Source: Humibacillus sp. DSM 29435
GTDB lineage: Bacteria; Actinomycetota; Actinomycetes; Actinomycetales; Dermatophilaceae
Length of the DNA: 64,000 nucleotides
Direction: 5' to 3'
Assembly: GCF_001758225.1 (NCBI RefSeq)
Contig: NZ_MAST01000051.1
Coordinates: 124,001 to 188,000 of the forward strand
Shown here: positions 7,132-27,633 of the stretch, piece by piece
Layout of the letters: each line of letters starts with the position of its first letter
Position numbering within the stretch: the first letter of the stretch is position 1
Translations under genes and position numbers: made by a program
Notes under the pieces: model-generated
What the model was told of the DNA's origin: nothing
Seen by the model: only the letters and a program-made list of their open reading frames with translations
Database searches by the model: none

Positions 7132-8268
7132 TCAGGGGCGCCAGGTGTAGCCGGTCGGTTCGCCTGCGCCGAGGTCGACGATGGCCGCGACCGGGCCACC
7201 GCCGTCGGGCCCCTGATGCGCTGCCGATACCGACACGAAGCAGGCCGGGTCGCCCGTCACGGAAGCGGTGACGCCGCCGACACACGCCTTGATCTGGCGG
7301 TGCCAGTGCACGTCGGAGTCGTCGAGCATCGCGTTGCGCCGACCACGCACCTGCCCGTCGGCGCTCACCTCGCACTTGAGGAACACGTTGACGAGCCGTC
7401 CTTGGATGTCGCTCGGGTGCGCCCGCTCGGGCAGGTCGAGACCGGCATCGCGGATCGCGTCCCAGATGCCGTCGGCGTCGAGGGCATCGCGCATGACGGA
7501 GTGGCCGATGCGGTAGCGCCCGCCGATGCCGCGGGCGTTGCCGACGACGACCACCTGGGCCTGGTCGAGCTCGACCCCGGAGCTGCACGAGGCGACCGAC
7601 GAGAACAGCGACCGGTCGTTCATGATGTCGGCGTCGGTGGGCATCTCGATCTCGCCGAGCGCGACCGCGACGCCGAGACCGGTGGTGCCGTTGGAGAGGT
7701 CCATCGACTCGTGCGTGTGCTCGGTCCAGACCTGGTGGCCGCGCGCCTTGGCCCCACGGATCGTGTGGATGGTGAGCAGCGGGGTCTTGGTCTGTACGTA
7801 GTGCACGTCGGCAGGGTCGGTGATGCCGGCCCGCTCCATCGCGACCCTCACGGCATCCGCCACCTTCGTCACCATGGCCACGTAGCCGATCTCCTCCGGC
7901 AGAAGGGGCTCGCTCATGGCGTACCCGACCGTGAGCCGGGGCTCGTCGCTCGGCTCGGCTCGCTCGGCGGGCACGGTCGCGAAGATCGTGGCGTGGGGGC
8001 TGATCACCCCGTCGGTGCCGCCTGACCAGACGATCGGCACCTGGCTGACCTGCTCGGCGGGGGCGCCCTTGGCGATCAGCACCTCCCGGAAGGCGCGGTC
8101 GGCGATGATGCGCGTGTAGTCGTTGACGCCGCCGTTGCCCTCGGTCTTGCCGATGACGGCGACGACGCGGGAGGCGTCCATGACGCCGTCGTCGATGAGT
8201 CGGGCCAGCCCGGACGCGTCGCTGACGGAGTCGAGCACAACCTTGCGGACCTCGATGGCTTCGGGCAC
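7132..8268 (-). CDS. Ring-opening amidohydrolase (barbiturase / cyanuric acid amidohydrolase family)
   Basis: A 378-residue member of the AtzD/TrzD/barbiturase family, which hydrolyses the ring amide of barbiturate (to ureidomalonate) or cyanuric acid with three Ser-Lys pairs from three similar domains. Matching segments are [32 protein letters not shown] (domain 1), YVQTKTPLL and [18 protein letters not shown] (domain 2), and [18 protein letters not shown] with [14 protein letters not shown] near the C-terminus. GTG 8268 has AAAGGTGA at the right spacing. The carbamate kinase stop is 4 bases upstream. Sequence alone does not separate barbiturate from cyanurate. The uracil-type permease and the absence of biuret or allophanate hydrolases favour barbiturate. 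Confidence 0.85.
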
Positions 8269-8272
8269 GGGA

Positions 8273-9262
8273 TCACCTTTCGTGGGAGGGCAGAGTGGGG
8301 GGTGACGGGCAGGGTGGTCGGGGTTCGGCTCGGCCTTCGATGACCGTGCCGACCTCACCGTCGATGGCGGCGGCGATCTGGTCGAGCGAGGTGATCACCG
8401 ACCGCAATCCGCCGGCGCGTACGAAGCGCATCGCCGCCTCGACCTTGGGGCCCATCGACCCCGACGCGAACTGGCCCTCGGCGGCATACGCCTGCGCCTG
8501 CTCGAGACTGACCCGCCCGATGGGCGCGGCCCGCGGTGTGCCCCAGTGGATGACGGCGTTCGGCACGTCGGTGGCGATCACCAGCACGTCGGCCCCGACG
8601 GCTTGGGAGAGCAGGGCGGCGGTGAGGTCCTTGTCGATGACGGCTTCGACCCCGTGCAGCTGACCGTTCGCCGAGCGGGCCACCGGGATGCCGCCACCGC
8701 CGGCGGCGACCACGACGTAGCCCGCGCCCAGCAGCGTCAGCAGCGTGCACGTCTCGAGCACGTCGACCGGCTCGGGGGAGGCGACCACCCGCCGCCAGCC
8801 GTGCTCGCCGCGGTCCTCCCACTGCTCGCCGTGGTCGATGAGGGTCTGGGCCTGCTCGCGCGGGAGGTAGCGACCGATCGGCTTGGTCGGGTGGGTGAAA
8901 CCGGGGTCGTCGACGCTGACGAGGGTGCGGGTGACGATCGCAGCCACCGGCGTGGTCAGGCCCCGCTCGGCGAGAGCGGCCTCCAGGGTGTCGAGCATGG
9001 TGAACCCGATGGTGGCCTGGGTCTGGGCGCCGCACCAGTCGAGCGGTACCGGCGGCACGACGGCTGCCGCGAGCTCGTTCTTGACGAGGATGTTGCCCAC
9101 CTGGGGCCCGTTTCCGTGGGTGAGCACGACCTCGTGGCCCGCCGCGACGAGGTCGGCGACCGGCGACATGGCGGCCGCGATCGCAGCCCGCTGAGACAGT
9201 GGTGTCGCACTGCCGTCGGGCCCGATCATGGCGTTGCCGCCGAGCGCCACCACGACTCTCAC
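8273..9262 (-). CDS. arcC: Carbamate kinase
   Basis: A 329-residue carbamate kinase of the amino-acid kinase fold, converting carbamoyl phosphate plus ADP to ATP, CO2 and ammonia in the cytosol. Motifs are VVALGGNAM at the N-terminus, [58 protein letters not shown], and [13 protein letters not shown] near the C-terminus. GTG 9262 is preceded by GAGGG overlapping the stop of a short upstream ORF. There are no arginine deiminase genes nearby. Its neighbours are the ring-opening amidohydrolase (4-base gap) and, across the island, an AllFGH-like carbamoyltransferase. Its job is therefore probably ATP recovery from ureide breakdown, as for AllK in E. coli. Confidence 0.93.
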
Positions 9263-9269
9263 GTCGCCC

Positions 9270-9305
9270 TCAGCATCGTTCGCCGGGTTCGGTCTCGCTG
9301 GCCAT
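9270..9305 (-). CDS. Putative leaderless 11-codon leader peptide upstream of carbamate kinase
   Basis: A short ORF reads MASETEPGERC and then TGA. Its ATG lies 6 bases after TATGCT (9317-9312), the same spacing seen for other leaderless starts in the window. Its stop overlaps the GAGGG Shine-Dalgarno of carbamate kinase, whose GTG lies 7 bases beyond the stop. Translation of the leader could therefore control re-initiation. Whether it is expressed is unknown. Confidence 0.35.
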   Translation of the reverse strand: MASETEPGERC

Positions 9306-9311
9306 GGCGCG

Positions 9312-9317
9312 AGCATA
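9312..9317 (-). promoter_or_regulatory. -10 element of an internal promoter before carbamate kinase
   Basis: Reading leftward, TATGCT lies 6 bases before the ATG of the short leader ORF, in the 147-base gap between the hydantoinase B gene and carbamate kinase. It suggests that carbamate kinase and the ring-opening enzyme have their own promoter within the island. Confidence 0.45.
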
Positions 9318-9409: not shown

Positions 9410-11392
9410 TCACAGCCAGTCGACCTCGGCCGACGACTGTCCGCCTGAGAGCTTCGCGTAGCCGGGCCCGCGGTCGAAGAACGGCTGGCGCTCGGGTCGG
9501 GCTGCTCGCAGCTCGGCCCGCAGGCCGTCGGACGCGGCTTGGTCGATGACCGGGTGGTCCCGGTCTCCGACGGCGACCACACCGTAGTTTCGGCGGGCAC
9601 CGCTCAGGCTGACCTTGCCCCCGCGCAGGTCGCGCTCGACCTCCCCGTAGGGCCGCTCGAGCGGGTCACCCCAGCCGCCGCCACCCGTGGTGCGGATGCG
9701 GATGACCTGACCGGCCAGTACCGGCTCGGCGTCGGCCAGGGCGTCGACGATGCGCTCGTCGGGGCCGCCGGGGTCGATCGTCACCTCGAAAGAGGCCCCG
9801 GCCCGACCTCCCTTGATGCCCCAGCAGGCGAGGATCGACCGGTCGGCGATCGACATGAAGTGCGCATCGCGCAGCATCCGGATGTGCTTCTCGTAGCCGA
9901 GGCCCCCACGGTGCCGACCGGGGCCTCCCGAGTCGACGGCGAGGCCGAGCCGTTCGACGAGGAAGGGGAAGCGGCTCTCGGTGAACTCTGTCGGCAGGTT
10001 GCGGCTGTCGGGCACCACGTGGATGGTGTCTTCGCCGTCGGCGTAGGGGCGGCCACCGGAGCCGCCACCCAGCACCTCCCGCATGAGGTAGTCGTTGCCG
10101 TCACGGTCTGTGCCGTAGACGCCGGTGTAGCGGATCGTCTCCTGGTCGGCCGGCATCTGCCCGTCGACCGCCTTGGCCACGACTCCGGCCAGCACCCCCA
10201 GCAGCCGCAGGATGACGAAGGTGCGCGCGTTGGTGGGAGCCGGGTAGATCGGGGTGAGCAACGTGCCCTTCTCGGGGAAGCGCATCTCGATGAGCGGCAC
10301 GACCCCCTCGTTGACGTCGAGCTGGGCCATGCGCTCCGGAGTGTCGGCGAGGTTGCGCAGGATGGGGGCCAGCCACTTCTTGAGAAAGTTGCCGCCGACG
10401 TAGTCGCCGCAGTGGTTGATCGGCCCCTTCGCCTGCGCCGACGTGCCGGTGAAGTCGATGATGATCCTCGGCCCGCCGTCGGGATAGCGGTCGGGGTGAC
10501 CGGGGCCTCCGGTCGAGGTCTTGGTCAGGGTGATCCGCTGGGCGTGCAGCCGCGGCTCGTCGACGCCGTCGTGCTCGGCGTAGTCCTCCCAGACGTATGT
10601 GCCGTCGGGAATCTTCGAGAGGATCTCGCGGCGATAGGTCTCGGTCGTTCGATCGAGGATCTCGTCGAACGCGGCCTCGACGGCGGCGCGGCCGTAGCGC
10701 TGGAAGAGCTCGGCAAGGCGGCGGGCCCCCATCAAGCAGGCCGAGCACTCCGCGTCGAGGTCGGCCGCCAGGCTCTCCGGCATGCGGCTGTTTCGCGTCA
10801 TGATCCGTAGGGCGGCACGGTTGGGAACCCCTTTGTCCCACAGTTTGATCGGCGGAACCATCAGGCCTTCCTCGTAGACCGAGCGGGCGTGGCTCGGCAT
10901 CGAGCCGGGCACCGCACCGCCGATGTCGTCGTGGTGGCCGAAGGCCTGAACGAAGGCGACGACCGTACCGTCGCAGAAGACGGGAACTGTGACGCAGAGG
11001 TCAGGCAGGTGGCCGATGCCGCCCTCGGACTCGTAGACGTCGTTGTGGAAGAAGATGTCGCCGTCGGCCATCTCGGAGAGGGGAAAGTCACGCGCGACCG
11101 GGTGTACGAGCGCACTGTAGGAACGCCCCGTCAGCTTGCGCAGCTGACGGTCGTGGATGCCAGCGCGGAAGTCATGGGCGTCGCGGATCATCGGGGAGCG
11201 AGACGTGCGGCCGATGGCCGTCTCCACCTCCAGCTCGACGCTCGCCAGGGTGCCCTCGACGATCTCGACGAGGATGGGGTCGACCGCGCTGCCCTCCAGG
11301 GTCAGCCGGTTGCCGTGCTCGTAGGCGGTCGGCAGCCCCGCCGGGTTCACCGGGGGGCTCGAGCCGCCACGGGGCTCAGGGTCCGGTGCCAT
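9410..11392 (-). CDS. hyuB: Hydantoinase B / oxoprolinase family subunit
   Basis: A 660-residue protein of the HyuB superfamily (N-methylhydantoinase B, 5-oxoprolinase C-terminal part, acetone carboxylase alpha). Recognisable segments are SRSPMIRDAHDFRAGIHD, DIFFHNDVYESEGGIGHLPD, HHDDIGGAVPGSMP, ILSKIPDGTYVWEDY, FTGTSAQAKGPINH and GGGGWGDPLERP near the C-terminus. With HyuA it forms an ATP-dependent amidohydrolase or carboxylase. ATG 11392 follows GGAGG with correct spacing, so the 17-base overlap with the hyuA end looks real. In this island it may act on a cyclic ureide, but the substrate is not readable. Confidence 0.88.
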   Translation of the reverse strand: MAPDPEPRGGSSPPVNPAGLPTAYEHGNRLTLEGSAVDPILVEIVEGTLASVELEVETAIGRTSRSPMIRDAHDFRAGIHDRQLRKLTGRSYSALVHPVARDFPLSEMADGDIFFHNDVYESEGGIGHLPDLCVTVPVFCDGTVVAFVQAFGHHDDIGGAVPGSMPSHARSVYEEGLMVPPIKLWDKGVPNRAALRIMTRNSRMPESLAADLDAECSACLMGARRLAELFQRYGRAAVEAAFDEILDRTTETYRREILSKIPDGTYVWEDYAEHDGVDEPRLHAQRITLTKTSTGGPGHPDRYPDGGPRIIIDFTGTSAQAKGPINHCGDYVGGNFLKKWLAPILRNLADTPERMAQLDVNEGVVPLIEMRFPEKGTLLTPIYPAPTNARTFVILRLLGVLAGVVAKAVDGQMPADQETIRYTGVYGTDRDGNDYLMREVLGGGSGGRPYADGEDTIHVVPDSRNLPTEFTESRFPFLVERLGLAVDSGGPGRHRGGLGYEKHIRMLRDAHFMSIADRSILACWGIKGGRAGASFEVTIDPGGPDERIVDALADAEPVLAGQVIRIRTTGGGGWGDPLERPYGEVERDLRGGKVSLSGARRNYGVVAVGDRDHPVIDQAASDGLRAELRAARPERQPFFDRGPGYAKLSGGQSSAEVDWL

Positions 11393-13562
11393 GGTCGACC
11401 TCCTTGGTGATGACGAGGTTGCCGAGCGCGTCGACCCGCACCACGAAGCCGGGGTGCACCGGCACCGTCGATCCGAACTCCTCGATGACGGCCGGGCCGG
11501 TGATCATGTCGCCCGACAACAGAGCCGGTCGCCACCACACGTCGGTCTCGACGTAACCCACGTCGGCGTCGGAACACACCGGTCGAACGCTGCGGTGGGC
11601 GCGCTCACGCACGGTGGCGCTGCCGTCAGCGTCGGCCCGGTCGAGGGCTCGCGGCTCGGGCCGGCTGATCGGCCCGACTCCGGAGACGCGAAGGTTGACC
11701 CACTCGACCTGCTGCGTCGGGTCGATGCGGAAGTCGTAGCCGTAGAGAGCGCGGTGCTCGTCGTGGAAGCGCCCGGCGATGACGTCGGCATAGTCTGCGT
11801 CGACGTCGCCGTCGGGGGCCGCGACGGGCACCTCGTAAGCCTGGCCGAAGTAGCGCAGGTCGACCGTGCGCACGTACCGCTGCATTCTTCGCGGGAACCC
11901 CTCGGCGTCAAGGGCCTTCGCGGCCTGGGCGGTGAGAAGGGCGAAGGCCTTCTGCACCGATGCGTGGTCGAGGGCGTGGTGGCGGGCGACCGACGTCTGC
12001 ACGTAGTCGTTCTTGACGTCGACGGTGAGCAGCCCGAACGCCGACACGTTGCCGGGGTCGCGGGGTACGAGCACACCGGCCAGACCGAGGATGTCGACCA
12101 GCCGGCAGGCGAGCAGCGAGCCGGAGCCACCGAAGGTGGTGAGCATGAAGTCACGCACGTCGAGGCCGCGTTTCACGCTCACCTGGCGCAGCGCGTTGGC
12201 CTGGTTCCAGGCCGAGATCTCGAGGATGCCGGCCGCACACTGCGCCGGCCCGAGCCCGAGGCGCTCGGCCAGCTGCTCGATACCGGCCCGCGCAGCCTCG
12301 ACGTCGAGCGGGATCTCGCCACCGAGCAGGTGTGCCGGGATGCGGCCGAGCATCAGGTGGGCGTCGGTGATGGTCGGTTCGCTCCCACCCTGGTCGTAGC
12401 AGAGGGGCCCCGGCTCGGCACCGGCCGACTGCGGGCCGACCTTGAGTGAACCCTGGGGGGAGACCCAGGCGATCGACCCACCGCCCGCGCCGACGGTCAC
12501 GACGTCAATCATGGGGATCTTGCTGGGGTAGGCCCCGATCGACCCCTCGGTCGTCAGGGTCGGTTCGCCCTCGAGCACGACGGCGACGTCGGTGGAGGTG
12601 CCGCCGCCGTCGCAGGTCAGCACCCGGTCGAAACCGGCCCGGCTGGCGATGAGGCCGGCGCCGAGGGCACCTGCCGCCGGCCCGGACAGCACGGTGGTGA
12701 TGGGCTGGTGCACGACCTCGTCGGCCGAGAGCACGCCGCCGTTGGACTTCATGATGTGAAACGACGCACGGGGGCGCACGCTCGTGACAGGCTGGTGTGA
12801 CGGCGCGCCGGTGCCGTCGGCCGGGCCGGGTTGGTCGACCGCCAGCGCTGACAACCGTTCGGCGATGGTCGCGACGTAGCGCGACACGGTGGGCTTCACC
12901 GCGGCGTCGAGCAGGGTCGTCATGGAGCGTTCGTACTCGCGGTACTCGCGCAGCACTTCGGAGCTGATCGAGACCACGGCCTCGGGGTGCTCGCGGCGCA
13001 GCACCTCCCGCATCGCCAGCTCGTGGCGGTCGTCGGCGTAGGAGTGCAGCAGACAGACACCGATCGCCATGATGTGTCGCTCGCGGAACCACCGCGCCGC
13101 TGCGACGGCGCTTGCCTCGTCGAACGGGCGGATCTCGTGCCCCTCGAAATCGAGACGCCCGCCCACGGTTCTGACGTGGTCTGCCGCGACGATGCGGGGC
13201 GGCTTGACCCAGAAGTAGGAGTTGCCGTAGCCGTCGGGCACCGACTGACGGGCGATCTCGAGAATGAACTCATACCCCTCCGTCGTGATGAAACCGAGCG
13301 ACCCGGTCTTGCCCTCGAGCAGCTGGTTCGTGGCGACGGTCGTTCCGTGTGAGACAGACGTCACGTCGTGGCTCTCGGCCCCCATCATCTCGAGCACCTT
13401 GTGAATCCCGGTCATGAAGCCGTCGGCCGGGTTGCCCGGCGTCGACGGGGTCTTGGTCGTCACCAGCTCGCCCAGGTCTTCGTCGAGCGCCACGACGTCG
13501 GTGAAGGTGCCGCCGGTGTCGATACCGATCCGGATGCGGCGCACCGCGCGCACCGCGGTCAC
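11376..13562 (-). CDS. hyuA: Hydantoinase A / oxoprolinase family subunit
   Basis: About 728 residues, the usual HyuA size. The actin-like ATPase core begins with RIGIDTGGTFTDVVALDE, followed by VSHGTTVATNQLLEGKTGSL, LTCDGGGTSTDVAVV and VGAGGGSIAW. The second half contains CLLHSYAD-type and FGGSGSLLACRLVDILGL segments. HyuA supplies the ATP-dependent activation for HyuB. The start was chosen at GTG 13562 because a CACTCT element lies 6 bases upstream. GTG 13553 (GGTGA upstream) and GTG 13577 are alternatives. It overlaps hyuB and may head a sub-operon, because an unrelated small gene and a 110-base gap precede it. Confidence 0.88.
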   Translation of the reverse strand: MTAVRAVRRIRIGIDTGGTFTDVVALDEDLGELVTTKTPSTPGNPADGFMTGIHKVLEMMGAESHDVTSVSHGTTVATNQLLEGKTGSLGFITTEGYEFILEIARQSVPDGYGNSYFWVKPPRIVAADHVRTVGGRLDFEGHEIRPFDEASAVAAARWFRERHIMAIGVCLLHSYADDRHELAMREVLRREHPEAVVSISSEVLREYREYERSMTTLLDAAVKPTVSRYVATIAERLSALAVDQPGPADGTGAPSHQPVTSVRPRASFHIMKSNGGVLSADEVVHQPITTVLSGPAAGALGAGLIASRAGFDRVLTCDGGGTSTDVAVVLEGEPTLTTEGSIGAYPSKIPMIDVVTVGAGGGSIAWVSPQGSLKVGPQSAGAEPGPLCYDQGGSEPTITDAHLMLGRIPAHLLGGEIPLDVEAARAGIEQLAERLGLGPAQCAAGILEISAWNQANALRQVSVKRGLDVRDFMLTTFGGSGSLLACRLVDILGLAGVLVPRDPGNVSAFGLLTVDVKNDYVQTSVARHHALDHASVQKAFALLTAQAAKALDAEGFPRRMQRYVRTVDLRYFGQAYEVPVAAPDGDVDADYADVIAGRFHDEHRALYGYDFRIDPTQQVEWVNLRVSGVGPISRPEPRALDRADADGSATVRERAHRSVRPVCSDADVGYVETDVWWRPALLSGDMITGPAVIEEFGSTVPVHPGFVVRVDALGNLVITKEVDHGTGP

Positions 13563-13568
13563 CGGGGG

Positions 13569-13574
13569 AGAGTG
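13569..13574 (-). promoter_or_regulatory. Possible -10 element of hyuA
   Basis: Reading leftward, CACTCT lies 6 bases before GTG 13562, and TTGACT lies 20 bases further upstream. The pattern fits the leaderless type but is less canonical than others in the window. Confidence 0.3.
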
Positions 13575-13672
13575 CACGAGGTCGTCATGACCCGAGTCAA
13601 CCCGTGCACCCTCGGCCAGAGCGCTGGCACAACCTGCCAACCCGGGCGGGGCGCTCGGTCAACCCTCGCCGA

Positions 13673-14317: not shown

Positions 14318-14376
14318 CGGATCCCTCGTCTCGTACGGCAGTGTCCGCACAGTACGTCACCGTGGCGCGACGCAGG

Positions 14377-15300
14377 TCAGCCGGCCTCGCCGCGATGGAC
14401 GGGGGCGTGCGGGAACGAGGTTTCTGCGGGCCGTTCGAGATCGTCGCGGTAGTTGCGGATGAGGTTCAGGTTGCGGTCGCGCAGGTGGTCGAAGGCCTGA
14501 CCGACACTGGAGCCCGGGGTCAGCGACGCCAAGGCCTCGGCCGGGTCGAGCCGGGCCGAGACCCATCCCTCGTGAGAGGCGGCCCGGGCGAGGACGTGCC
14601 CGATCGGCGAGACGATGTGCGAGTTGCCGAAGTAGAGCACCCCTGCCGGGTCGGTGCCGGTGGCGTTGGTGCCGATGACGTAGACGTGGTTGTCGTAGGC
14701 GCGGGCGCGAGAGGTGAGGTCCCAGATGTCGGCCGACCGCAGCAGCGCCGACGGTCGGCAGATCACCTCGGCTCCCTGTACCGCCTGGATTCGGGCGACC
14801 TCGGGGTAGTCGCCGTCGAAGCAGATCATCATGCCGATGCGCCCCAGCTCGGTGTCGCACACGGTCACCGTGTCGCCCGGCGTCACCCAGCCACCGCCGC
14901 TGACGATCTCGGAGCAGAACGGGTGCGTCTTGCGGTAGACCCCGAGAACGTCGCCGGCCGGGTCGATGAGCGCTGAGGCGTTGTAGACCGTTCCCCGTTG
15001 GGGGCCGCGCTCGTAGGTGCCCACGCACACGTGCACGCCGAGCTCGCGGGCCACCCGCTGCATCGGCTCCAGCACCGGCCCGGGCAGCTCGGTGACGAGA
15101 TCCCAGAGCTCCTCCGCCGAGCACGCGGGCGTGAACCCGGTGGTGGCCGACTCGGGCAGCACGACGAGCTCCGCGCCTGTGGCGGCCACGCAGCGACGCG
15201 TGAGGTCGATGCAGTGGTCGAGGTTGGTGCTTACCGACTTGCCGGTGAGCGGCCCCGGCACGGGTGCGACCTGCACGGCGGCAGCAGTGAAGGCGCGCAC
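14377..15300 (-). CDS. Nitrilase-superfamily carbon-nitrogen hydrolase (amidase)
   Basis: A 307-residue CN-hydrolase with the complete Glu-Lys-Cys catalytic set: Glu in VVLPESATTGF, Lys in YRKTHPF and Cys in MICFDGDYPE. A second conserved Glu sits in GTYERGPQRGTVYNA. The family hydrolyses amides or N-carbamoyl groups (omega-amidase, N-carbamoylputrescine or beta-ureidopropionase types). GTG 15300 begins one base after the coxG-like stop, so the genes are coupled. In the proposed pathway it would deaminate malonamate, or otherwise cleave an N-carbamoyl product. The substrate is inference from context only. Confidence 0.85.
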   Translation of the reverse strand: MRAFTAAAVQVAPVPGPLTGKSVSTNLDHCIDLTRRCVAATGAELVVLPESATTGFTPACSAEELWDLVTELPGPVLEPMQRVARELGVHVCVGTYERGPQRGTVYNASALIDPAGDVLGVYRKTHPFCSEIVSGGGWVTPGDTVTVCDTELGRIGMMICFDGDYPEVARIQAVQGAEVICRPSALLRSADIWDLTSRARAYDNHVYVIGTNATGTDPAGVLYFGNSHIVSPIGHVLARAASHEGWVSARLDPAEALASLTPGSSVGQAFDHLRDRNLNLIRNYRDDLERPAETSFPHAPVHRGEAG

Positions 15301-15301
15301 G

Positions 15302-15976: not shown

Positions 15977-15986
15977 CGGGTGCTCT

Positions 15987-18434: not shown

Positions 18435-19009
18435 GACGGGCCTCCCCCCGCCGCAGCGGGTTTCGGATGCCGTTCGCCCGGCTCAGCGGCATCCGGTACG
18501 CGTCGCTCGGCCCTGATCTCAGCCGCCCGCAGCACGCTCTTGACGATGTTCTGGTAGCCGGTGCACCGGCACAGGTTGCCCGAGATGGCGGCGCGAGCCT
18601 CGTCGCTGGTCGGGTCGGGATGATCGTCGAGGTACGCGGTGACGGTGGTGAGCAGGCCGGGGGTGCAGAAGCCGCACTGCAGGCCGTGGCACTCGGTGAA
18701 CGCCTGCTGGACCGGGTTCATCGACTGGCCGGTTGCGCACACGCGGGCGTCGGGCAGCAGCCCGAGGCCTTCCACGGTCGTGACCTCGAGGCCCTGCGCC
18801 GACACGGCGAACATCAGGCACGAGCGCATCGGCTCGCCCCCCACCAGCACCGTGCAGGCGCCGCACACGCCGTGCTCGCAGCCGACGTGGGTGCCGGTCA
18901 GAGTCAGGTCGTGGCGCAGGAAGTCGGACAACAGGCGCCGGGCCGGCACCGACGCCGTACGGCGAACACCGTTCACGGTGAGGGTCACCTCGTGCAGCAC
19001 CTCACTCAT
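18431..19009 (-). CDS. Molybdenum hydroxylase [2Fe-2S] subunit
   Basis: A 192-residue small subunit with both clusters. The ferredoxin-like cluster is GCEHGVCGACTVLVGGEP plus a later Cys in MRSCLMF. The helical-domain cluster is QCGFCTPGLLTTVTAYL and NLCRCTGYQNIVKSVL. It passes electrons from the Mo centre to the FAD subunit. A C-terminal extension of about 30 residues rich in Glu, Pro and Ala is longer than usual. It shares one base with the stop of the FAD subunit gene (TGATG) and 4 bases with the large subunit gene, so the three are translated as a coupled unit. Confidence 0.94.
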   Translation of the reverse strand: MSEVLHEVTLTVNGVRRTASVPARRLLSDFLRHDLTLTGTHVGCEHGVCGACTVLVGGEPMRSCLMFAVSAQGLEVTTVEGLGLLPDARVCATGQSMNPVQQAFTECHGLQCGFCTPGLLTTVTAYLDDHPDPTSDEARAAISGNLCRCTGYQNIVKSVLRAAEIRAERRVPDAAEPGERHPKPAAAGGGPS

Positions 19010-20003: not shown

Positions 20004-21470
20004 CTAGGGCCGCCGCCGATCGGGTCGGTCACCAGTGTCGTCGCCGTCGCCGTCGTCGTCGTGGTCGTAGCCGGCGGGCCCGACGATGATCATCGCGCCG
20101 TCGGCCCGCTCACGAAGGTCTGCGGGGGCCAGGTTGCGCGCCAGGTGGTAGGCGCCGATGGCCACGATGGTGCCCAGGGCGATGCCTCCGAGCTGGAAGT
20201 CCTTGGTGAAGACCAGATTGACGTTGCCGATGCCGATGACGATTCCAGCGGCGACCGGCACGAGGTTGATCGGGTTGGCGAAGTCGACGCCGTTCTCCTT
20301 CCAGATCTTGGCTCCGAGCAGGCCGATCATGCCGTAGAGCACGACGGTGATACCGCCGAGCACCCCACCGGGGGTGGCCGCGACCAGCGCGCCGAACTTG
20401 GGCGAGAGCCCGAACACGATGGCGACGACGGCAGCGACGTAGTAGGCCGCGGTCGAGTAGACGCGGGTGGCGGCCATCACACCGATGTTCTCGGCGTAGG
20501 TCGTCGTCGGCGAACCGCCCACGGCGGAGGCGAGCATGGTGCCGACACCGTCGGCCCCGATCGCCCTGCCCATGTAGGGGTCGAGGTTGGTCTTGGTCAT
20601 CTCGGCCACCGCCTTGACGTGGCCGGTGTTCTCGGCAATGAGAGCGATGACAGCTGGCAGCACGAGCAGGATCGCCGCCACCGAGAAGCTCGGTAGGTGG
20701 GCTCCGACGATCTCCTTGCCGTCAGGACCGATGGAGCTCACGGGCGGGAACCCGAACCAGGGCGCGGAGTTGAAGGCGTCGAGGTTGACCCGGAAATGGT
20801 CGGTGACCTTGCCGGTGCCGTCGGAGGCGGTGATCATGCCGAAGATCCCGTCGAAGACCCACGAGAGCACGAACCCGAAGACGAGGGCGAGGAAGATCGC
20901 GATGCGCCCGATGAACCCACGGAAGGCGACTGCGCACACGATGGCGAACGTCATCACGCACAGGGCGACCCACTGGTCCTGCGGCCAGTAGACGTTGGCC
21001 ACGACCGGGGCGAGGTTGAACCCGATGAGCATCACCACGGCGCCGGTGACGACGGGAGGGAGCACCTGGTGCAGCAGCCGCGAGCCCAAGAAGTGGATCG
21101 CGACGCCAACGAGGGTGAGCACGAAGCCGGCCACGAGGATGGCGCCCGTCACGGTCGCCGACGTCGCCCCCTCCTGGCTGCGGATCGCCGCGGCCGCGCC
21201 GACGAACGCTGCCGAGGTGCCGAGGTAGCTCGGCACCTTGCCGCCCACGATGAGCAGGAAGCAGATGGTGGCGATGCCGCTCATCATGATCGCCAGCTGT
21301 GCGTTGAGGCCCATCAGCAACGGGAAGACGAACGTCGCGCCGAACATCGCGACCACGTGCTGCGCCCCGAGGCCCACGGTTCGTCCCCACGAGAGCCGTT
21401 CGTCGGGCGCCACGACCTCATCGGGCCCGAGCGTCTTGCCGTCGCCGTGCAGTTTCCAGCCCAGTGCCAT
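20004..21470 (-). CDS. NCS2-family uracil-type permease
   Basis: A 488-residue nucleobase:cation symporter of the UraA/NAT family with about 14 hydrophobic segments. Visible are GLGAQHVVAMFGATFVFPLL, LGTSAAFVGAAAA, VIALIAENTGHVKAV and GGSPTTTYAENIGV. In UraA the equivalent second Glu (in TYGENIGV) binds uracil, whereas purine transporters carry Gln there, so a pyrimidine-like substrate is favoured. A His/Asp-rich tail (YDHDDDGDGDD) may be a cytoplasmic metal-binding stretch. ATG 21470 has GGAG upstream; an in-frame ATG at 21491 is possible. It is the first gene of the leftward uptake and oxidation operon. Confidence 0.9.
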   Translation of the reverse strand: MALGWKLHGDGKTLGPDEVVAPDERLSWGRTVGLGAQHVVAMFGATFVFPLLMGLNAQLAIMMSGIATICFLLIVGGKVPSYLGTSAAFVGAAAAIRSQEGATSATVTGAILVAGFVLTLVGVAIHFLGSRLLHQVLPPVVTGAVVMLIGFNLAPVVANVYWPQDQWVALCVMTFAIVCAVAFRGFIGRIAIFLALVFGFVLSWVFDGIFGMITASDGTGKVTDHFRVNLDAFNSAPWFGFPPVSSIGPDGKEIVGAHLPSFSVAAILLVLPAVIALIAENTGHVKAVAEMTKTNLDPYMGRAIGADGVGTMLASAVGGSPTTTYAENIGVMAATRVYSTAAYYVAAVVAIVFGLSPKFGALVAATPGGVLGGITVVLYGMIGLLGAKIWKENGVDFANPINLVPVAAGIVIGIGNVNLVFTKDFQLGGIALGTIVAIGAYHLARNLAPADLRERADGAMIIVGPAGYDHDDDGDGDDTGDRPDRRRP

Positions 21471-21664
21471 GAACGACTCCCATCGGAACAACGCAGGTTC
21501 GCCCGCGCGGTCGGTGCTCAGACCCGTGCCCGGGCACCTTGGCCCGAAAACTACTCCGAGACAGGGGGGTCGCGGTGGGCAATTGCTGCTGACGCGCCGA
21601 AGGCGGTCTGGCAGGACCTGCCCTTCAGGCCTCGCCGCGCCGGTCGAGCAGCCAGCGTCAACCC
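21471..21664. other. Upstream region of the permease operon
   Basis: First part of a 462-base stretch without a gene between the permease start and the PucR stop. It should carry the promoter of the leftward operon, but I could not identify a -10 element or operator with confidence. Confidence 0.4.
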
Positions 21665-21932: not shown

Positions 21933-23654
21933 TCACAGGCCGCGCATGCGGTGCACCTTGAGTGCCAGCGCGAGCGCCAGCCGCAGCTCGGGGTCGGTCG
22001 TGAACGGCCCCAGCAGCTTCTCCAGCTTGCCGATGCGGTAGCGCAGCGTGTTGTAGTGGAAGAAGAGGCGCCGGGCCGTCTCGGCGACGTTGAGGTTCGT
22101 GTCCAGCAGCAGGCCGAGCGTGCGGCGCAGGTCGGCGTTCTCGGCGAGGTCGTCGGTGGCGAGCGGGCCCAGCGTCTCGGCCACGAAACGCCGCAGGTCG
22201 GCGCCGTCGGGAACGAGTCCGAGCAGCCGGTAGACGCCAAGGCCGTCGACGTGGGTCAGCGCGCCATGACCGTGCAGCTGGCGGCCGACGGTGACGGCCG
22301 ACTGCGCCTCGTCGTAGGCCTGGGGCAGATCGGCCGGAGAGGTGATCATGCGCGACACTCCGGCCGAGAAGCTGCGCCTTCCGCCACCCCCGTCGCCGCG
22401 CACCACCCGCACAAGATCGTGGACCGACCGCATGATGCGGTCGGTGTCGGCCTCGGCCGGCACGCCGACCAGCGCGACGACCTCACGGCTGAACCCCATG
22501 ACCGGGGAACGGTTCTCGCGAACCGCCATGGCGTGGGTCCAGGCCCGCGCGAACCGCTCCTGCAGAAAGCGCACCTCCTCCGCGTCGCGGCTCGACCGGT
22601 CGTCGTCCTCGTCGGTCTCGGCCACGACGACCACCATGGGCCGGTCGATGTTCCAGCCGAGCGACTGGGCGTGGGCCACGGCATCGGCGACCGACCCGGC
22701 CCGACCCGTGAGGGCGTCGCGCAGAAACTCGGCCCGGTACTTGCTCTCCACCGCGGCCACGGCCTGGTCCTTGGTGATCGCGAGGGCCGCGACGGTCGCT
22801 GCGCGCTCGAGCAGGTGCACGTCGTCGACGGTGAGGCAGCGGTGACTGCAGAAGGCGACCAGCAGCCCGTGGTCGAACTGGCCGGCCGCGATACGCACGG
22901 CCACTCGCCCCGCCGTGGGGCCGTCGAGGCGTGCGCCGATCGGTTCCGACTCGGTGAGCAGTCGTCCCGAGCGGTCGAAGCAGGGCAGGGATGTCGCATG
23001 GTCGCGCTCGTGCTGGGAGCCCGCCGCGGCGATGATCCGCCCGTCGGTCGTGGTCACCATCGCCGCCCCGTCGAGAAAGCCGCCCACCCGTTCGCAGAGG
23101 TCGTCGAGCGAACCACCGGCCAGGACGATCTGCACCAAGGCGCGGTCGGCGTCGTCGAGCCGACGCAGCATCGAGGTCTGGTGCTCGAGAATGGCCTCGA
23201 GCACCTCGGTGGTGAACCGGGGGAGGTGCTCCTCCGGCAGCTCGATGAGGGGCAGGTGGTGGTCGTGAGCGGCCGCGCGGAGGTCTGCGTCGAGGCCGGC
23301 GCCGGGAGCCGGCCCGACTGCGACCCCGACCACGAGGCCGACAGCGCCCGCCTCGGCCAGCCGCTCGACCAGGCGCCTCCGGTCTGAGGCAGCGACACCG
23401 GCGTCCGTGAGGGTGGCTGCGTCTGCGATGACGAGCTGGTGGCGCAGGTCGCTGAACCCGTTGTCAGCGGCCCGCAACGGGGCGGCGCGGTCAACCGAGA
23501 TCTCGAGCCCCGTCGGCGCAGCGTGCACGACGCCACCCCGACTCGACGCCAGGCCCACGATCAGACGGAGCGCGATTCCCGACACGTCGGAGCCGCCGAC
23601 AGACGCTGGCAACTGTGCAGCATGAGAGGGGACATCGTTGGCAACATTGGCCAT
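21933..23654 (-). CDS. PucR-family transcriptional regulator
   Basis: A 573-residue regulator. An N-terminal purine-catabolism-type sensor region (residues 1-150, with LTDAGVAASDRRRLVERLAE and LPLIELPEEH) precedes a GAF/GGDEF-like middle. The C-terminal PucR helix-turn-helix reads VAETARRLFFHYNTLRYRIG, then KLEKLLGPF. Relatives activate purine or ureide catabolic genes in response to a metabolite. It is divergent from the allH-like gene and upstream of the permease operon, so it is the obvious local regulator. ATG 23654 has TACAGT 6 bases upstream and no Shine-Dalgarno. Confidence 0.92.
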   Translation of the reverse strand: MANVANDVPSHAAQLPASVGGSDVSGIALRLIVGLASSRGGVVHAAPTGLEISVDRAAPLRAADNGFSDLRHQLVIADAATLTDAGVAASDRRRLVERLAEAGAVGLVVGVAVGPAPGAGLDADLRAAAHDHHLPLIELPEEHLPRFTTEVLEAILEHQTSMLRRLDDADRALVQIVLAGGSLDDLCERVGGFLDGAAMVTTTDGRIIAAAGSQHERDHATSLPCFDRSGRLLTESEPIGARLDGPTAGRVAVRIAAGQFDHGLLVAFCSHRCLTVDDVHLLERAATVAALAITKDQAVAAVESKYRAEFLRDALTGRAGSVADAVAHAQSLGWNIDRPMVVVVAETDEDDDRSSRDAEEVRFLQERFARAWTHAMAVRENRSPVMGFSREVVALVGVPAEADTDRIMRSVHDLVRVVRGDGGGGRRSFSAGVSRMITSPADLPQAYDEAQSAVTVGRQLHGHGALTHVDGLGVYRLLGLVPDGADLRRFVAETLGPLATDDLAENADLRRTLGLLLDTNLNVAETARRLFFHYNTLRYRIGKLEKLLGPFTTDPELRLALALALKVHRMRGL

Positions 23655-23732: not shown

Positions 23733-24644
23733 GTGAGTGCGCTGGTGGGGCCCCTTGTCGTCGCGTCGTGGCCGGCTGCCGTCTCGCCACTCGTCGCAGC
23801 CTGGATCGACGGGCCGCCACGTGGCCGCCGCGTGCTCAGCGCCTTCGCCACCTGCCTCTACGTCGAGCTGGGCTCCCACGACCGCGTGATGGCCGTGCAC
23901 ACGCCGGATGCCGTCCAGCTGCCGATCGGTGTGCGCCTGTCAGGGCCGGTTCGTCTGAACGACCTGGTACATGCTGGTGACGTGGTGACCGTCGGTGGCG
24001 GCCGCGTGCAGCTGCCGGGCGCCGACGTCGTGGGCGTCCGCCGTTCGAGGCCTGTTCGCGTCGGCCTGGGCGGCGGCACCGCGCCGAGCGCGTGGCGGTC
24101 GCTCGGACTGGCGCTCCCCGGGGCCGGTCTTCGCGACGACCTTGATGGCCTGGACGACGTCGCCACCCGGCTCTGTGTGGCGGCGCTGACCGGCCGACCC
24201 GTTCAGGCCGGCGTTGGCCGGCTCGTCGGTGCCGGCCGTGGTCTCACCCCGAGCGGAGACGACCTGCTGTGCGGCATCCTGCTCAGCCTCCGGGCCTTCG
24301 AGCGCCCTCCTCACGGCGCGCACTCAGCGCTGAAGCGGGCCGTGCTGTCCCGGCTGCACCGCACGACGAGCATCTCGGCTGCTCTGATCTCGGCGGCCAC
24401 GCAGGGGTGGGCCGCGCCCGACATCGTTCGACTTCTCGGCCTGCTCGCCGGCAGCGTGCCACCTCGCCCAACCGAGCTCTGCGCGGTATGGAACCGGGCG
24501 CAGTGCATCGGTCATACCTCGGGCGCCGACCTGCTCGCAGGCATCACGGCAACGGTGACCGCGCTGACGTCGCTCGCCTCGCCCATGCGCGACACCGACC
24601 CGCTCAGCGTTCGTCTGCGTCAGTCGGAGGCCGCCCATGCCTGA
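23733..24644 (+). CDS. allH: DUF2877 / AllH-like subunit of an oxamate-type carbamoyltransferase
   Basis: A 303-residue DUF2877 protein. The diagnostic motif GAGRGLTPSGDDLLCGIL is present at about residue 170. E. coli AllH (YlbF) is one of three proteins reported to form oxamate carbamoyltransferase with AllF (FdrA) and AllG (YlbE). GTG 23733 follows GGAGGGAAAG; the longer in-frame ORF from 23439 would run through the pucR promoter and 5' end. It overlaps the AllF-AllG fusion by 8 bases. Orthology to AllH is by family and context; the substrate may differ. Confidence 0.8.
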   Translation: MSALVGPLVVASWPAAVSPLVAAWIDGPPRGRRVLSAFATCLYVELGSHDRVMAVHTPDAVQLPIGVRLSGPVRLNDLVHAGDVVTVGGGRVQLPGADVVGVRRSRPVRVGLGGGTAPSAWRSLGLALPGAGLRDDLDGLDDVATRLCVAALTGRPVQAGVGRLVGAGRGLTPSGDDLLCGILLSLRAFERPPHGAHSALKRAVLSRLHRTTSISAALISAATQGWAAPDIVRLLGLLAGSVPPRPTELCAVWNRAQCIGHTSGADLLAGITATVTALTSLASPMRDTDPLSVRLRQSEAAHA

Positions 24645-27633
24645 TCACGTCGAGCTCAGGCCGGGCGGCTACCACGACTCGGTGAGCCTGATGCAGGTCT
24701 CACATGCGGTGGCCATCGTGCCCGGGGTGGTAGCGGCCCAGGTCGCCATGGCGACCGACCTCAACCTCGAGGTGATCGCCTCGATGGGCTTCACCGTGCC
24801 TGCGGGCGCCGGGCCGAACGACCTTGTCGTCGCGCTTCGTGCTGCCGACGCCGCCACCGTCGACGCAGGCCTGCAAGCACTCGAGTCGGCACTGGCCGAT
24901 CTGCACTCTGCAGCCGCCACGTCGACCGGTCTCGGCGCGCCCCCCCGGCCCCGCACCGTCGGCGGCGCGGTGGCGGCCTCGCAGGCCAACCTCGCCCTCG
25001 TGTCGGTTCCTGGGCCGCATGCCGGCATCGAGGCCCTTGACGCGATCCGGTCGGGGGTCAGCGTGATGGTGTTCTCCGACAACGTGCCCGTCGAGCAGGA
25101 GGTGCTGCTCAAGAGCGAGGCCGCCGTCCGCGGCGTGCTCGTGATGGGCCCCGACTGCGGCACGGCGATCGTCGGTGGGGTCGCCCTCGGGTTCGCGAAC
25201 GTCGTGCGAGCCGGCTCGGTGGGTGTCGTGGCGGCCTCCGGCACCGGGGCCCAGCAGGTCATGTGCCTGCTCGATGCGGCAGGCGTCGGCATCAGCCACT
25301 GCCTCGGCGTCGGGGGGCGCGACCTCTCCTCGCCGGTGGGCGGCCGGTCGACCCGGCAGGCACTCGCGGCACTCGCGGCCGACCCGGCCACCGCCTCGAT
25401 CGTCGTGGTCTCCAAGCCGCCGGCCCCGGAGGTTCTGGCGGCGCTCGAGGCGCATGCCGCTGGGCTCGGCAAGCCGGTGACCTGGGCCATCCTCGGCCCG
25501 GGGCGGCCTGACCTGACTGCGTCCATCGAGGCCATGGTCAGCTTGTCCGGCGCGATGCCGCCCAGATGGCCGACCCGCAAGGTCGAGCCGCCCTCCGCAC
25601 CGGTCGCTGCACCGGTCGACGGGCCGACGACCACGTCCGGCTCGCTGCGGGGCCTGTTCTGCGGGGGCACGCTCGCCGACGAGGCGATGCTGATCGCGAG
25701 CGAGTACGTCGGCGGCATCCGGTCGAACATCGCGTTGACTCCCGAGCTGGGGCTCGGGCCCGACCTGCGTCACGACGGCCACGTCGTCATCGACTTCGGC
25801 GACGACGCGCTGACGCGGGGGAGGGCGCACCCGATGATCGACCCCTCGCTCCGGCTGAGCCGAATCGCCCTCGAGGCCGTCGACCCCTCCTGCGGGGTGC
25901 TGCTGCTCGACCTCGTACTGGGCCACGGCGCGCACCCCGACCCGGCACCCGACCTCGCCGCAGCCATCGCCTCGGCCCGTCGGGCCGCCGCCGCCGGCGG
26001 GCGTGAGCTGGCTGTGGTCGTCTCGCTCATCGGCACCGACGCCGACCCGCAGGGCTGGACGCGATCGGCCGACCTGCTCGCCGAAGCCGGGGCCGCCGTG
26101 CTGCTCTCGAACGCCGAAGCGACCCGTCACGCCCTGAACCTGCTGGGCCACCGAACGAGGCCGCGGCAGACGCTCCCGCCGTCGCCCGAGGCCGGTCGGC
26201 GCGCAGTCAACCCGCCCGGTGATGGCGTGCGGATGCCGCTCGAAGGGGAGGTCACGGTGGCTACGGTGGGCGCCGGGGTCTTGTCTGACGCCCTTCGTGC
26301 ACAAGCGGTGTCGATCACGGAGGCGAACTGGCAGCCGCCGATGACGGGCACCGAGGGCGACCTTTGGGCGGTGTCGACCGACGCCCGGCGGGACGCCGCC
26401 AATGCCCTGGCGCTGGCCCGCATGACGGCAGCCGGCGCTGACCTCGTCGACGTACGGCCCGCACGAGAGGCCCTCGGGCTCGAACGCGGCACCTTCCTGC
26501 ACGCCGGGCCTCCGATCACCTTCGAGCGAGCCTCGGGCCCGCTGCGGGGGGCGCTCATCGGCGCGATGCTGCTCGAGGGCCTGGCCGACACCGCAGAGGA
26601 GGCCGCGGCGGTCTTGACCCGTGGCGAGGGCATCGTGCTCGAGCCCTGCCACCACCGTGGCGCCGTGGGCCCGATGGCCGGGGTCATCTCAGCGTCGATG
26701 TGGGTCTACGAGCTGCACGACAGCGGGCACGGCAACACGTCGTGGTGCTCGCTCAACGAGGGCCTCGGCAAGGTGCTGCGATACGGGGCCTTCGGCCCGG
26801 AAGTCATCGAGCGGCTGCGCTGGATGGGCGCCGTGCTCGGGCCGATCCTGCAGCAGGCGGTGCGGGCGCGTCTGGAGCAACAGAGCCCGATCGACGTCAA
26901 GGCGATCATCGCCGCGATGCTGCAGATGGGCGACGAGGGGCACAACCGCAACCGGGCCGGGTCGCTGTTGCTGCTGCGCGAGCTGCTGCCCACGATGATC
27001 ACCGCCGACGCACCGAGCAGCGACATCGCCGAGGCGGTGCGCTTCTCGGGGGCCAACGAGCACTTCTTCCTCAACCTCGGGATGCCGGCCTGCAAGCTGG
27101 CTACGGTGGCGGCCCACGGCATCCCGGGCTGCTCGGTGGTGACGACGATGGCCCGCAACGGCACCGACTTCGGCATCCGTGTATCCGGCACGGGCGACGA
27201 GTGGTTCACCGCGCCGGCGGGCACCCCTCAGGGCCTCTTTCTGGGCAGTTACGGCCCCGCCGACGCCAACCCCGACATCGGCGACTCGGCGATCACCGAG
27301 ACCGCCGGCATCGGCGGGTTCGCCATGGCGGCGGCACCGGCGATTGTGCGCTTCGTCGGCGGCGACGTGGCGTTCGCGCTTCGCACCACCGCGATGATGT
27401 ACCAGATCACGGTGGGCGAGCACCCGGCCTACCAGGTGCCGATCCTCGAGTTCCGGGGTACTCCGACGGGGATCGACGTCGTTGCGGTGGCGCGCACCGG
27501 CATCCTGCCCCAGATCAACACCGGGATGGCGGGGCGCGTCGCCGGCACCGGTCAGGTTGGCGCCGGCCTGGTCACCCCACCCGCCGCGTGCTTCAGCCAG
27601 GCCCTCGCGGCGCTGGCGGCTCGCACACCCTGA
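24637..27633 (+). CDS. AllF-AllG fusion: FdrA-type plus DUF1116 carbamoyltransferase subunits
   Basis: A 998-residue protein. Residues 1-510 match FdrA (AllF), a succinyl-CoA-synthetase-like protein: LRPGGYHDSVSLMQVS, VLVMGPDCGTAIVGG, GVVAASGTGAQQV, LGVGGRDLSSPVGGRST, then a C-terminal segment LRGLFCGGTLADEAM. A Pro/Arg-rich linker (about 510-540) follows. Residues 540-998 match DUF1116 (YlbE, AllG): LEPCHHRGAVGPMAGVIS, HGNTSWCSLNEGLGKVLR, MGDEGHNRN, FFLNLGMPA and TTMARNGTDFGIRVSG. In E. coli these are separate genes of about 555 and 420 residues, and the sum fits. With AllH it should move a carbamoyl group between phosphate and an amide such as oxamate or malonamate. The natural substrate is inferred. 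Confidence 0.82.
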   Translation: MPDHVELRPGGYHDSVSLMQVSHAVAIVPGVVAAQVAMATDLNLEVIASMGFTVPAGAGPNDLVVALRAADAATVDAGLQALESALADLHSAAATSTGLGAPPRPRTVGGAVAASQANLALVSVPGPHAGIEALDAIRSGVSVMVFSDNVPVEQEVLLKSEAAVRGVLVMGPDCGTAIVGGVALGFANVVRAGSVGVVAASGTGAQQVMCLLDAAGVGISHCLGVGGRDLSSPVGGRSTRQALAALAADPATASIVVVSKPPAPEVLAALEAHAAGLGKPVTWAILGPGRPDLTASIEAMVSLSGAMPPRWPTRKVEPPSAPVAAPVDGPTTTSGSLRGLFCGGTLADEAMLIASEYVGGIRSNIALTPELGLGPDLRHDGHVVIDFGDDALTRGRAHPMIDPSLRLSRIALEAVDPSCGVLLLDLVLGHGAHPDPAPDLAAAIASARRAAAAGGRELAVVVSLIGTDADPQGWTRSADLLAEAGAAVLLSNAEATRHALNLLGHRTRPRQTLPPSPEAGRRAVNPPGDGVRMPLEGEVTVATVGAGVLSDALRAQAVSITEANWQPPMTGTEGDLWAVSTDARRDAANALALARMTAAGADLVDVRPAREALGLERGTFLHAGPPITFERASGPLRGALIGAMLLEGLADTAEEAAAVLTRGEGIVLEPCHHRGAVGPMAGVISASMWVYELHDSGHGNTSWCSLNEGLGKVLRYGAFGPEVIERLRWMGAVLGPILQQAVRARLEQQSPIDVKAIIAAMLQMGDEGHNRNRAGSLLLLRELLPTMITADAPSSDIAEAVRFSGANEHFFLNLGMPACKLATVAAHGIPGCSVVTTMARNGTDFGIRVSGTGDEWFTAPAGTPQGLFLGSYGPADANPDIGDSAITETAGIGGFAMAAAPAIVRFVGGDVAFALRTTAMMYQITVGEHPAYQVPILEFRGTPTGIDVVAVARTGILPQINTGMAGRVAGTGQVGAGLVTPPAACFSQALAALAARTP

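Follow-up and report, generated by a model that had tools for sequence, protein, structure and literature searches.

An oxidative pyrimidine gene island in Humibacillus and other Actinomycetota that may end in phosphorolysis of ureidomalonate

Introduction

How do bacteria that degrade pyrimidines oxidatively release the last carbamoyl group? The question is raised by a gene island at positions 7,132–27,633 of a 64,000-nucleotide stretch from Humibacillus sp. DSM 29435 (assembly GCF_001758225.1, contig NZ_MAST01000051.1, positions 124,001–188,000; hereafter the window), which is part of a 5.02-Mb, 54-contig genome (G+C 70%). The island joins a ring opener of barbiturase type and a molybdenum hydroxylase (CoxM, CoxS and CoxL; CoxMSL) to carbamate kinase and to AllF, AllG and AllH (AllFGH), known as an oxamic transcarbamylase in Escherichia coli. 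To our knowledge, the first and last enzymes of the oxidative pyrimidine route have no known genes, and we know of no ureidomalonase sequence. The accessible part of one account describes this route as rare and as ending in malonate and urea through ureidomalonase (PMC3758960). No named ureidomalonase gene was found in the open-access literature among the matches listed there.

We consider that the island probably serves oxidative pyrimidine catabolism ending in phosphorolysis. Uracil would enter through the NCS2 permease and be oxidised to barbiturate by CoxMSL with CoxG, and the ring opener would convert barbiturate to ureidomalonate (3-oxo-3-ureidopropionate). AllH and the AllF–AllG fusion would then transfer the carbamoyl group of ureidomalonate to phosphate, giving malonamate and carbamoyl phosphate; carbamate kinase would use the latter with ADP to form ATP, CO2 and NH3, and the nitrilase-type amidase would split malonamate into malonate and NH3. 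Many relatives may continue, by a class-III CoA-transferase and a biotin-free carboxyltransferase-like protein, to malonyl-CoA and then acetyl-CoA, and PucR is the likely regulator of the island. We infer each reaction, above all the substrate of AllFGH and the role of the HyuAB pair described below, from observed gene content, the barbiturase signature, gene co-occurrence and a contrast with Rhodococcus. More broadly, we lean modestly towards an undescribed ureidomalonate:phosphate carbamoyltransferase, a subfamily of AllFGH, as the usual last carbamoyl-releasing enzyme across Actinomycetota, working free of urease and yielding one ATP per uracil, with ureidomalonase as an exception tied to urease in Rhodococcus.

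Results

Barbiturase residues in the ring opener

The ring opener belongs to the AtzD/TrzD family, its PF09663 score (Table 1) far exceeding the cut-off of 25, and its best solved match is the barbiturase 5hwe at 658 bits, followed by cyanuric acid amidohydrolase at 319 (phmmer against the PDB). In the accessible part of PMC3758960, positions 195, 321, 325, 345 and 346 of AtzD separate Arg-Thr-Arg-Gly-Gly in AtzD from Asn-His-Lys-Val-Ser/Ala in barbiturase; the protein of the window has N-H-K-V-S at the corresponding residues 223, 353, 357, 377 and 378, agreeing with the published barbiturase signature at all five. An earlier note on this DNA, made from the letters alone, had called the protein a barbiturase-family ring opener, and both the best PDB match and the five specificity residues bear this out. 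Cyanuric acid hydrolase (CAH) was considered and rejected, as the Arg-Thr-Arg-Gly-Gly signature is absent. With the NCBIfam CAH model NF052395 the protein still reaches 470 bits, over the cut-off of 360; since this model passes a protein whose residues are of barbiturase type, the label cyanuric acid amidohydrolase is unsafe. All the sequence tests applied thus identify the protein as a barbiturase, and barbiturate is its predicted substrate.

The signature is kept widely. An alignment of 181 rows at at least 60% identity (145 distinct sequences, overlapping loci of one genome included) had 175 fully readable rows and six that were partly or not readable; N-H-K-V occurs in all 175 (NHKVS 137, NHKVA 21, NHKVG 17), the Gly of the last 17 departing from the published Ser/Ala. 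Nine rows below 60% identity, from six genomes and with one row mostly unreadable, lack the barbiturase signature, and among five distant ring openers of a phylum-wide sample two have CAH-type residues and three have neither type. Two further observations concern this family. The accessible part of PMC4051656 gives glutamine at the Arg188 column for the barbiturase subgroup, where the aligned barbiturases and PMC3758960 have asparagine. In a plasmid collection, 130 of 132 records with a ring-opener match were less than 60% identical to the protein of the window, the plasmids being mostly from Rhizobium (67), Citrobacter (18) and Klebsiella (10).

The molybdenum hydroxylase

All parts of the three-subunit hydroxylase and its CoxG partner, as previously named, were recovered: MoCoBD_1/2 in CoxL, PF00941 in CoxM, the 2Fe-2S domains within the open reading frame (ORF) 18431–19336, and PF06240 in CoxG. 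The closest solved relatives of CoxL are quinoline 2-oxidoreductase (458 bits) and 6-hydroxypseudooxynicotine dehydrogenase (457 bits), and CoxL is 64% identical to the CoxL encoded in the R. erythropolis barbiturase locus. Its active-site loop TPYRGAGRP was the only match to the pattern searched (Tyr, Arg/Lys, Gly/Cys); form-I aerobic CO dehydrogenase has AYRCSFR in this loop. Aerobic CO oxidation was rejected on this loop and on the nearest solved enzyme, although the NCBIfam CO dehydrogenase model NF040766 scores 1519 bits, over its cut-off of 950.

Ring opener and AllG occur together

The survey of co-occurrence that the earlier note had recommended gave a close association. Within a family sample of 149 genomes the ring opener was found in 68, AllG in 70 and both in 67 (Fisher P = 1.6e-37; the genomes are related, and Fisher values overstate independence). 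The 68 include a fragment in G084 (21.5 bits, below the cut-off) and, in G018, a distant ring opener (43% identity, R-E-R-G-G) accompanied by an AllG of another clade; leaving both out, ring opener and AllG occur together in 65 of the 149 genomes. The two genes lie less than 60 kb apart in 53 genomes of this sample, distances having been taken for recorded pairs. In the phylum sample of 396 genomes a ring opener of at least 65% identity was present in 22, every one of them with AllG, whereas none of the five genomes with a distant ring opener (39–43%) had AllG; outside the 22, AllG was found in 27 of 374 genomes, the five distant-opener genomes counted in (P = 7e-23). The pair shares a contig within 45 kb in 17 of the 22 and lies on different contigs in five. 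Outside the window's class, where ring openers are 65–68% identical, the gene set is kept in a different order; G157, for example, has ring opener, NCS2-like permease, carbamate kinase, AllH, AllG/AllF, CoxL, CoxG, amidase, HyuA and CoA-transferase.

A transcarbamylase set with carbamate kinase

AllF, AllG and AllH are encoded together in the island, with carbamate kinase in the same cluster. A single frame of 998 residues combines a Ligase_CoA/FdrA (AllF) part with AllG (FdrA model 402 bits, under the cut-off of 433), and its solved relatives are FdrA (3dmy) and the uncharacterised 3clq. This AllF–AllG fusion, already reported in the earlier note, is no isolated case: it recurs as one open frame with a linker of 135–138 nt in nine of 42 regions checked, the window itself included and E. 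coli among the 42. The two genes are split in 31 regions, and two further assignments as fused (G223 and G000b) are doubtful, G000b showing two ORFs there. AllH most likely starts at 23733, where a GTG follows GGAGG, rather than at the ORF start 23439.

A tree of 46 chosen rows, a subset of the AllG sequences found, places 25 island sequences in one clade (support 100/98) adjoining AllG from HyuAB clusters. Outside it lies AllG of E. coli (48% identical), so that the assayed E. coli AllFGH complex falls in another part of the tree; also outside is a second AllG of the Humibacillus genome, which scores 292 bits, a bit score alone carrying no clade information. This second AllG belongs to a separate set on contig C29 (L063, 14000–31719) of unfused AllF, AllG and AllH genes with a carbamate kinase and a DUF1097 gene alongside.

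Carbamate kinase lies within the ring-opener flanks in 73 of 80 named loci, the remaining seven being L213, L271 and all five loci of the Rhodococcus group; flanks reach at most 10 kb in this set, so AllFG (3 of 80) is mostly beyond reach. The E. coli complex catalyses the reversible reaction of oxamate and carbamoyl phosphate to oxalurate and phosphate (PMC11326118, Table 5, accessible in part). Ureidomalonate is an acylurea, as oxalurate is, so the same bond would be cut. For a carbamoyl amine such as citrulline, phosphorolysis is much less favourable. Of the compounds that the island could make, ureidomalonate stands out as the acylurea, and on this analogy it is the predicted AllFGH substrate.

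The Rhodococcus contrast

The hydrolytic pathway has been characterised in R. erythropolis and some others. The barbiturase gene of R. erythropolis NBRC 15567 is surrounded by genes for uracil phosphoribosyltransferase, two PucR proteins, a CoA-transferase, a carboxyltransferase, an amidase and a class-III aminotransferase, and the same locus further holds two NCS2 genes, CoxMSL, CoxG, HyuAB and an NmrA-like gene. Neither carbamate kinase nor AllFGH was mapped in this stretch, and AllG had no match anywhere in the R. erythropolis genome. Among the five Rhodococcus-group genomes searched, four have no AllG; the fifth, R. koreensis, has two copies (251 and 245 bits), both outside the island clade. 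The other 40 barbiturase genomes or records all have AllG, 39 of them at at least 306 bits and one in two frame-broken pieces (this search covered 45 of 47 named genomes or records, L151 and L258 being left out). R. erythropolis has the same core with no AllG in its genome and no carbamate kinase at the locus; AllFGH and carbamate kinase probably replace ureidomalonase elsewhere.

Urease follows the same division. Its alpha subunit was found in all five Rhodococcus-group genomes and in eight of the 40 others (P = 0.001), a contrast that rests on one genus group; among the eight, G550 has short matches only and W01 is one replicon. No urease alpha was found in the Humibacillus genome. Urea-yielding hydrolysis goes with urease, and AllFGH mostly occurs without it. 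A comparable pattern is described for enteric bacteria in the accessible part of PMC11326118, with AllFGH in urease-negative enterics but not in Klebsiella, which is urease-positive, and with E. coli O157:H7, which has both, as an exception.

An amidase gene directly follows the barbiturase gene in all five Rhodococcus-group loci. The R. erythropolis copy (L196:11233–12726) is a candidate ureidomalonase gene. In R. sp. IEGM 1409 and AW25M09 the barbiturase and HyuA genes are on different contigs.

The amidase slot and the malonyl skeleton

In seven relatives picked for a gene of 425–502 residues mapped beside CoxG/CoxL, the position taken by the window's amidase holds an amidase-signature protein in every case; HyuA lies on its other side in five, and the stretch ends there in two (G199 and G372). 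The amidases of G157 and G125 were searched singly, and six from outside the window's class, 53–76% identical to that of G157, as one profile. The profile has malonamidase E2 as its best solved match (361 bits; next 204), as does the G157 protein alone (282 bits versus 144 for the next). Malonamate is a substrate of malonamidase E2, in which the arginine of the GSVIRPA stretch binds the carboxylate, and this arginine, at Ser+3, is kept in all six amidases from outside the class. These slot proteins, being like malonamidase E2, fit malonamate, the product expected of ureidomalonate phosphorolysis.

The carbon skeleton leaves a trace as well. A class-III CoA-transferase occurs in 20 of 27 ring-opener regions, chosen from the 68 family genomes at about one or two per genus with the window in and G018 out, and in 47 of the 80 named loci within their flanks; its closest models are succinate-glutarate, succinyl-CoA:mesaconate and CoA:oxalate CoA-transferases, all below cut-off. 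An acetyl-CoA-carboxyltransferase-like protein with AccD-like and AccA-like halves occurs in 15 of the 27 regions and 16 of the 80 loci, mostly between HyuB and carbamate kinase. We read the two as predicted malonate activation and malonyl-CoA decarboxylation; their frequent presence in the island fits malonate as the carbon product.

HyuAB and the ATP balance

HyuA and HyuB, two of the island's largest genes, were omitted from the earlier gene list, which was otherwise accurate in the genes it named. The closest solved relative of HyuA is N-methylhydantoinase 7hk5 (445 bits), and it carries the motifs DTGGTFTD and DGGGTSTD. The accessible part of PMC8453981 describes these as phosphate-binding motifs of caprolactamase and has members of the HyuAB family spending ATP to open lactams and hydantoins. 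HyuA or HyuB was called in 26 of the 27 family regions, the exception, G070, being a 5.8-kb contig; of the 45 named genomes or records, 44 have a HyuA of the island kind and Pseudonocardia acaciae has none; and within the flanks of the 80 named loci HyuA was seen in 41 and HyuB in 51. We dropped the idea that HyuAB is tied to AllFGH and missing in Rhodococcus: HyuA is in all five Rhodococcus-group genomes, and HyuAB sits directly after CoxG in the four whose contig covers that side.

HyuAB is therefore treated as a core part of the island, and most likely opens a second ring at the cost of ATP, perhaps that of 5-methylbarbiturate derived from thymine; this second-ring role is suggested because uracil degradation in R. 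erythropolis is reported to run through barbiturase and ureidomalonase. The description of the pathway as ATP-conserving in the earlier note is not supported in that form, since it passes over an ATP-consuming family found in nearly every island.

Weighing the route against its alternatives

The earlier note had proposed that AllFGH and carbamate kinase stand in for ureidomalonase and that the amidase acts on malonamate. This proposal emerges much strengthened by the barbiturase signature, the co-occurrence with AllG, the malonamidase-E2-like slot, the CoA-transferase and carboxyltransferase genes and the Rhodococcus contrast, but in the form first given it is only partly supported.

Several observations count against it. 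In the window itself the amidase belongs to the nitrilase superfamily and not to the family of malonamidase E2, and the G125 amidase, relatives of which sit in Nocardioides islands, has a better match to GatA-type amidases (201 bits versus 89 for malonamidase). The window holds no CoA-transferase or carboxyltransferase gene, the rest of the genome not having been searched for them. L200 has an amidase behind the ring opener despite its carbamate kinase, so that this feature is not confined to Rhodococcus, and the R. koreensis barbiturase gene lies about 0.36 Mb from the CoxMSL–HyuA block, which makes clustering less than absolute. In the family sample urease alpha was found in 16 of the 68 genomes with a ring opener and 31 of the 81 lacking one, a trend at most (P = 0.076). 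HyuAB, common to both variants, fits nowhere in the uracil branch as proposed here, and any ATP that it spent there would cancel the gain through carbamate kinase. Three genomes from outside the window's class (L281, L282 and L283, with CoxMSL in the first two, whose stretches are long enough to show it) have AllFG next to HyuAB and no ring-opener match in the phylum search; there HyuAB may feed AllFGH alone, as the ring opener. Finally, we know of no AllFGH of the island clade that has been assayed, which bears on the interpretation as the earlier note put it.

The alternative that survives best, unlikely in our estimation, makes the amidase the ureidomalonase in all these bacteria, with malonate and urea or malonamate, CO2 and NH3 as products, and has AllFGH and the kinase serve another, co-regulated acylurea. 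The named models for the window's amidase all score below cut-off, and the best of them, at 112 bits, is N-carbamoylputrescine amidase, a carbamoyl-cleaving family; this agrees with such a role, as does the position of the amidase gene directly behind barbiturase in the Rhodococcus group and, together with carbamate kinase, in L200. The amidases outside the window's class speak otherwise, since their likeness to malonamidase E2 fits the product of phosphorolysis, and the alternative sits poorly with the finding that island-type AllG is missing only from the Rhodococcus group among the 45 named genomes or records. Urea would moreover be stranded in the 52 of 68 ring-opener genomes that have no urease alpha match. 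In the genome of the window the amidase may itself be a ureidomalonase, the nitrilase-type protein having no clear named relative. The earlier remark that no separate ureidomalonase is seen is not supported as a sign of absence: with no ureidomalonase sequence known to us, sequence alone does not tell whether the enzyme is there, and the nitrilase-type protein may be such an enzyme.

It is very unlikely that the island targets some other cyclic imide or lactam, opened chiefly by HyuAB, and that the barbiturase-type protein contributes a side activity. That HyuAB is a core gene pair and stands beside AllFG in the three genomes without a ring-opener match would suit this idea, but all 175 fully readable rows retain N-H-K-V, and in the R. 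erythropolis locus this core stands next to a gene for uracil phosphoribosyltransferase. Least probable, and rejected here, is an ordinary oxamic transcarbamylase for purine-derived oxalurate in a mixed purine and pyrimidine salvage island: in its favour are three subunits and a carbamate kinase that correspond to those of E. coli allFGHK, and a uricase match in the Humibacillus genome, but the AllD family is matched in 32 of 149 genomes, with none reaching the cut-off and no match in the Humibacillus genome, uricase is unlinked to the ring opener (22 of 68 versus 28 of 81; P = 0.86), and island AllG forms its separate clade.

Gene layout and neighbouring genes

The island's minus strand carries, in order, PucR, the NCS2 permease, CoxM, CoxS, CoxL, CoxG, the nitrilase-type amidase, a small ORF, HyuA, HyuB, carbamate kinase and the ring opener, and the plus strand carries AllH followed by the AllF–AllG fusion (Table 1). 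The open frames show coding-type GC by codon position as well as family matches, which confirms the gene inventory of the earlier note at each of its coordinates.

Table 1 Features of the island, in window coordinates
Feature	Position	Strand	Evidence and remarks
Ring opener, barbiturase type	7132..8358	-	PF09663 476 bits; homology from about residue 25-36, true start probably near 8268
Carbamate kinase	8273..9316	-	PF00696; PRK12352 312 bits (cut-off 266); arcC 336, below its 358
HyuB, hydantoinase B/oxoprolinase subunit	9410..11392	-	PF02538 449 bits
HyuA, ATP-binding hydantoinase A subunit	11376..13640	-	PF01968 279 bits
Nitrilase-type amidase (proposed malonamate amidase)	14377..15477	-	PF00795 163 bits
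CoxG, Mo-hydroxylase accessory protein	15302..16039	-	PF06240 84 bits
CoxL-type Mo subunit, proposed uracil(/thymine) dehydrogenase large subunit	15987..18434	-	MoCoBD_1/2
CoxS-type 2Fe-2S subunit	18431..18991, in ORF 18431-19336	-	Fer2 and Fer2_2, ORF residues 120-268
CoxM-type FAD subunit	19009..19971	-	PF00941 133 bits, PF03450 46 bits
NCS2 nucleobase permease	20004..21491	-	PF00860 254 bits; best named model RutG 352, below cut-off 759
PucR-type regulator	21933..23654	-	HTH_30, GGDEF_2, PucR; true start uncertain
AllH subunit	23733..24644	+	PF11392 82 bits; GTG start behind GGAGG
AllF-AllG fusion, proposed ureidomalonate transcarbamylase subunits	24637..27633	+	Ligase_CoA 108 bits, AllG (PF06545) 310 bits

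The small ORF between HyuA and the amidase (13673–14350, minus strand, 225 residues) has no Pfam match and one hydrophobic stretch; among the mapped regions its single match is in G016, a genome of the same genus (82% identity). HyuB is often followed, in Rhodococcus too, by an NmrA-like NAD(P)-binding protein (L106:4813–5670 and relatives), which has no match in the window. Gene maps of relatives come from a simple codon-position gene picker that both misses and overruns genes; it missed carbamate kinase in G042 and G050, for example, although L243, a locus on a contig as long as that of G050, does show the gene.

Discussion

One conserved gene set, whose ring opener and AllG co-occur in 65 of the 149 family genomes and which is also present in genomes of another class, offers gene candidates for both ends of the oxidative pyrimidine pathway: coxMSL for uracil/thymine dehydrogenase and, by comparison, the R. 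erythropolis amidase for ureidomalonase. The phosphorolytic ending, if true, would place an energy-conserving reaction where hydrolysis had been assumed and would give the new three-subunit AllFGH transcarbamylases a second substrate, and the presence of urease offers a reason why a lineage uses hydrolysis or phosphorolysis. Two NCBIfam names in this island, cyanuric acid amidohydrolase (7132–8358) and aerobic CO dehydrogenase (15987–18434), run against the residue evidence and would be wrong.

Comparison with known systems

HyuAB resembles the ATP-dependent N-methylhydantoinase/caprolactamase enzymes in its HyuA and HyuB families and in its nucleotide motifs, but its scores of 474 and 191 bits lie far from the caprolactamase equivalog cut-offs of 1000. 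Malonamidase E2 is the best match of the slot proteins outside the window's class, with the Ser+3 arginine present, whereas the window has a nitrilase-superfamily protein in this place.

The oxidative pyrimidine pathway of R. erythropolis is also close: its barbiturase belongs to the same clade (82% identical), and it shares the CoxMSL–CoxG–HyuAB block, NCS2 and PucR with the island, and the CoA-transferase and carboxyltransferase genes with many islands. It differs in that AllG has no match in the genome, the stretch shows no carbamate kinase and the barbiturase gene is immediately followed by that of an amidase, and in a published route that ends, according to the accessible part of PMC3758960, in malonate and urea.

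By term counts, no link between barbiturase and AllFGH was found in the open-access literature among the matches listed; the accessible part of PMC12625717 describes allFGHK beside triuret genes in some nitrifier genomes, atzD not being found. The E. coli AllFGH/AllK system is alike in having AllF, AllG, AllH and carbamate kinase in one cluster, and its oxamic transcarbamylase likewise performs phosphorolysis of an acylurea (PMC11326118, accessible in part). The set in the window differs in that its AllG is of another clade, AllF and AllG are fused, the proposed substrate is longer by one CH2, and its neighbours are a barbiturase and a molybdenum hydroxylase rather than allantoin genes.

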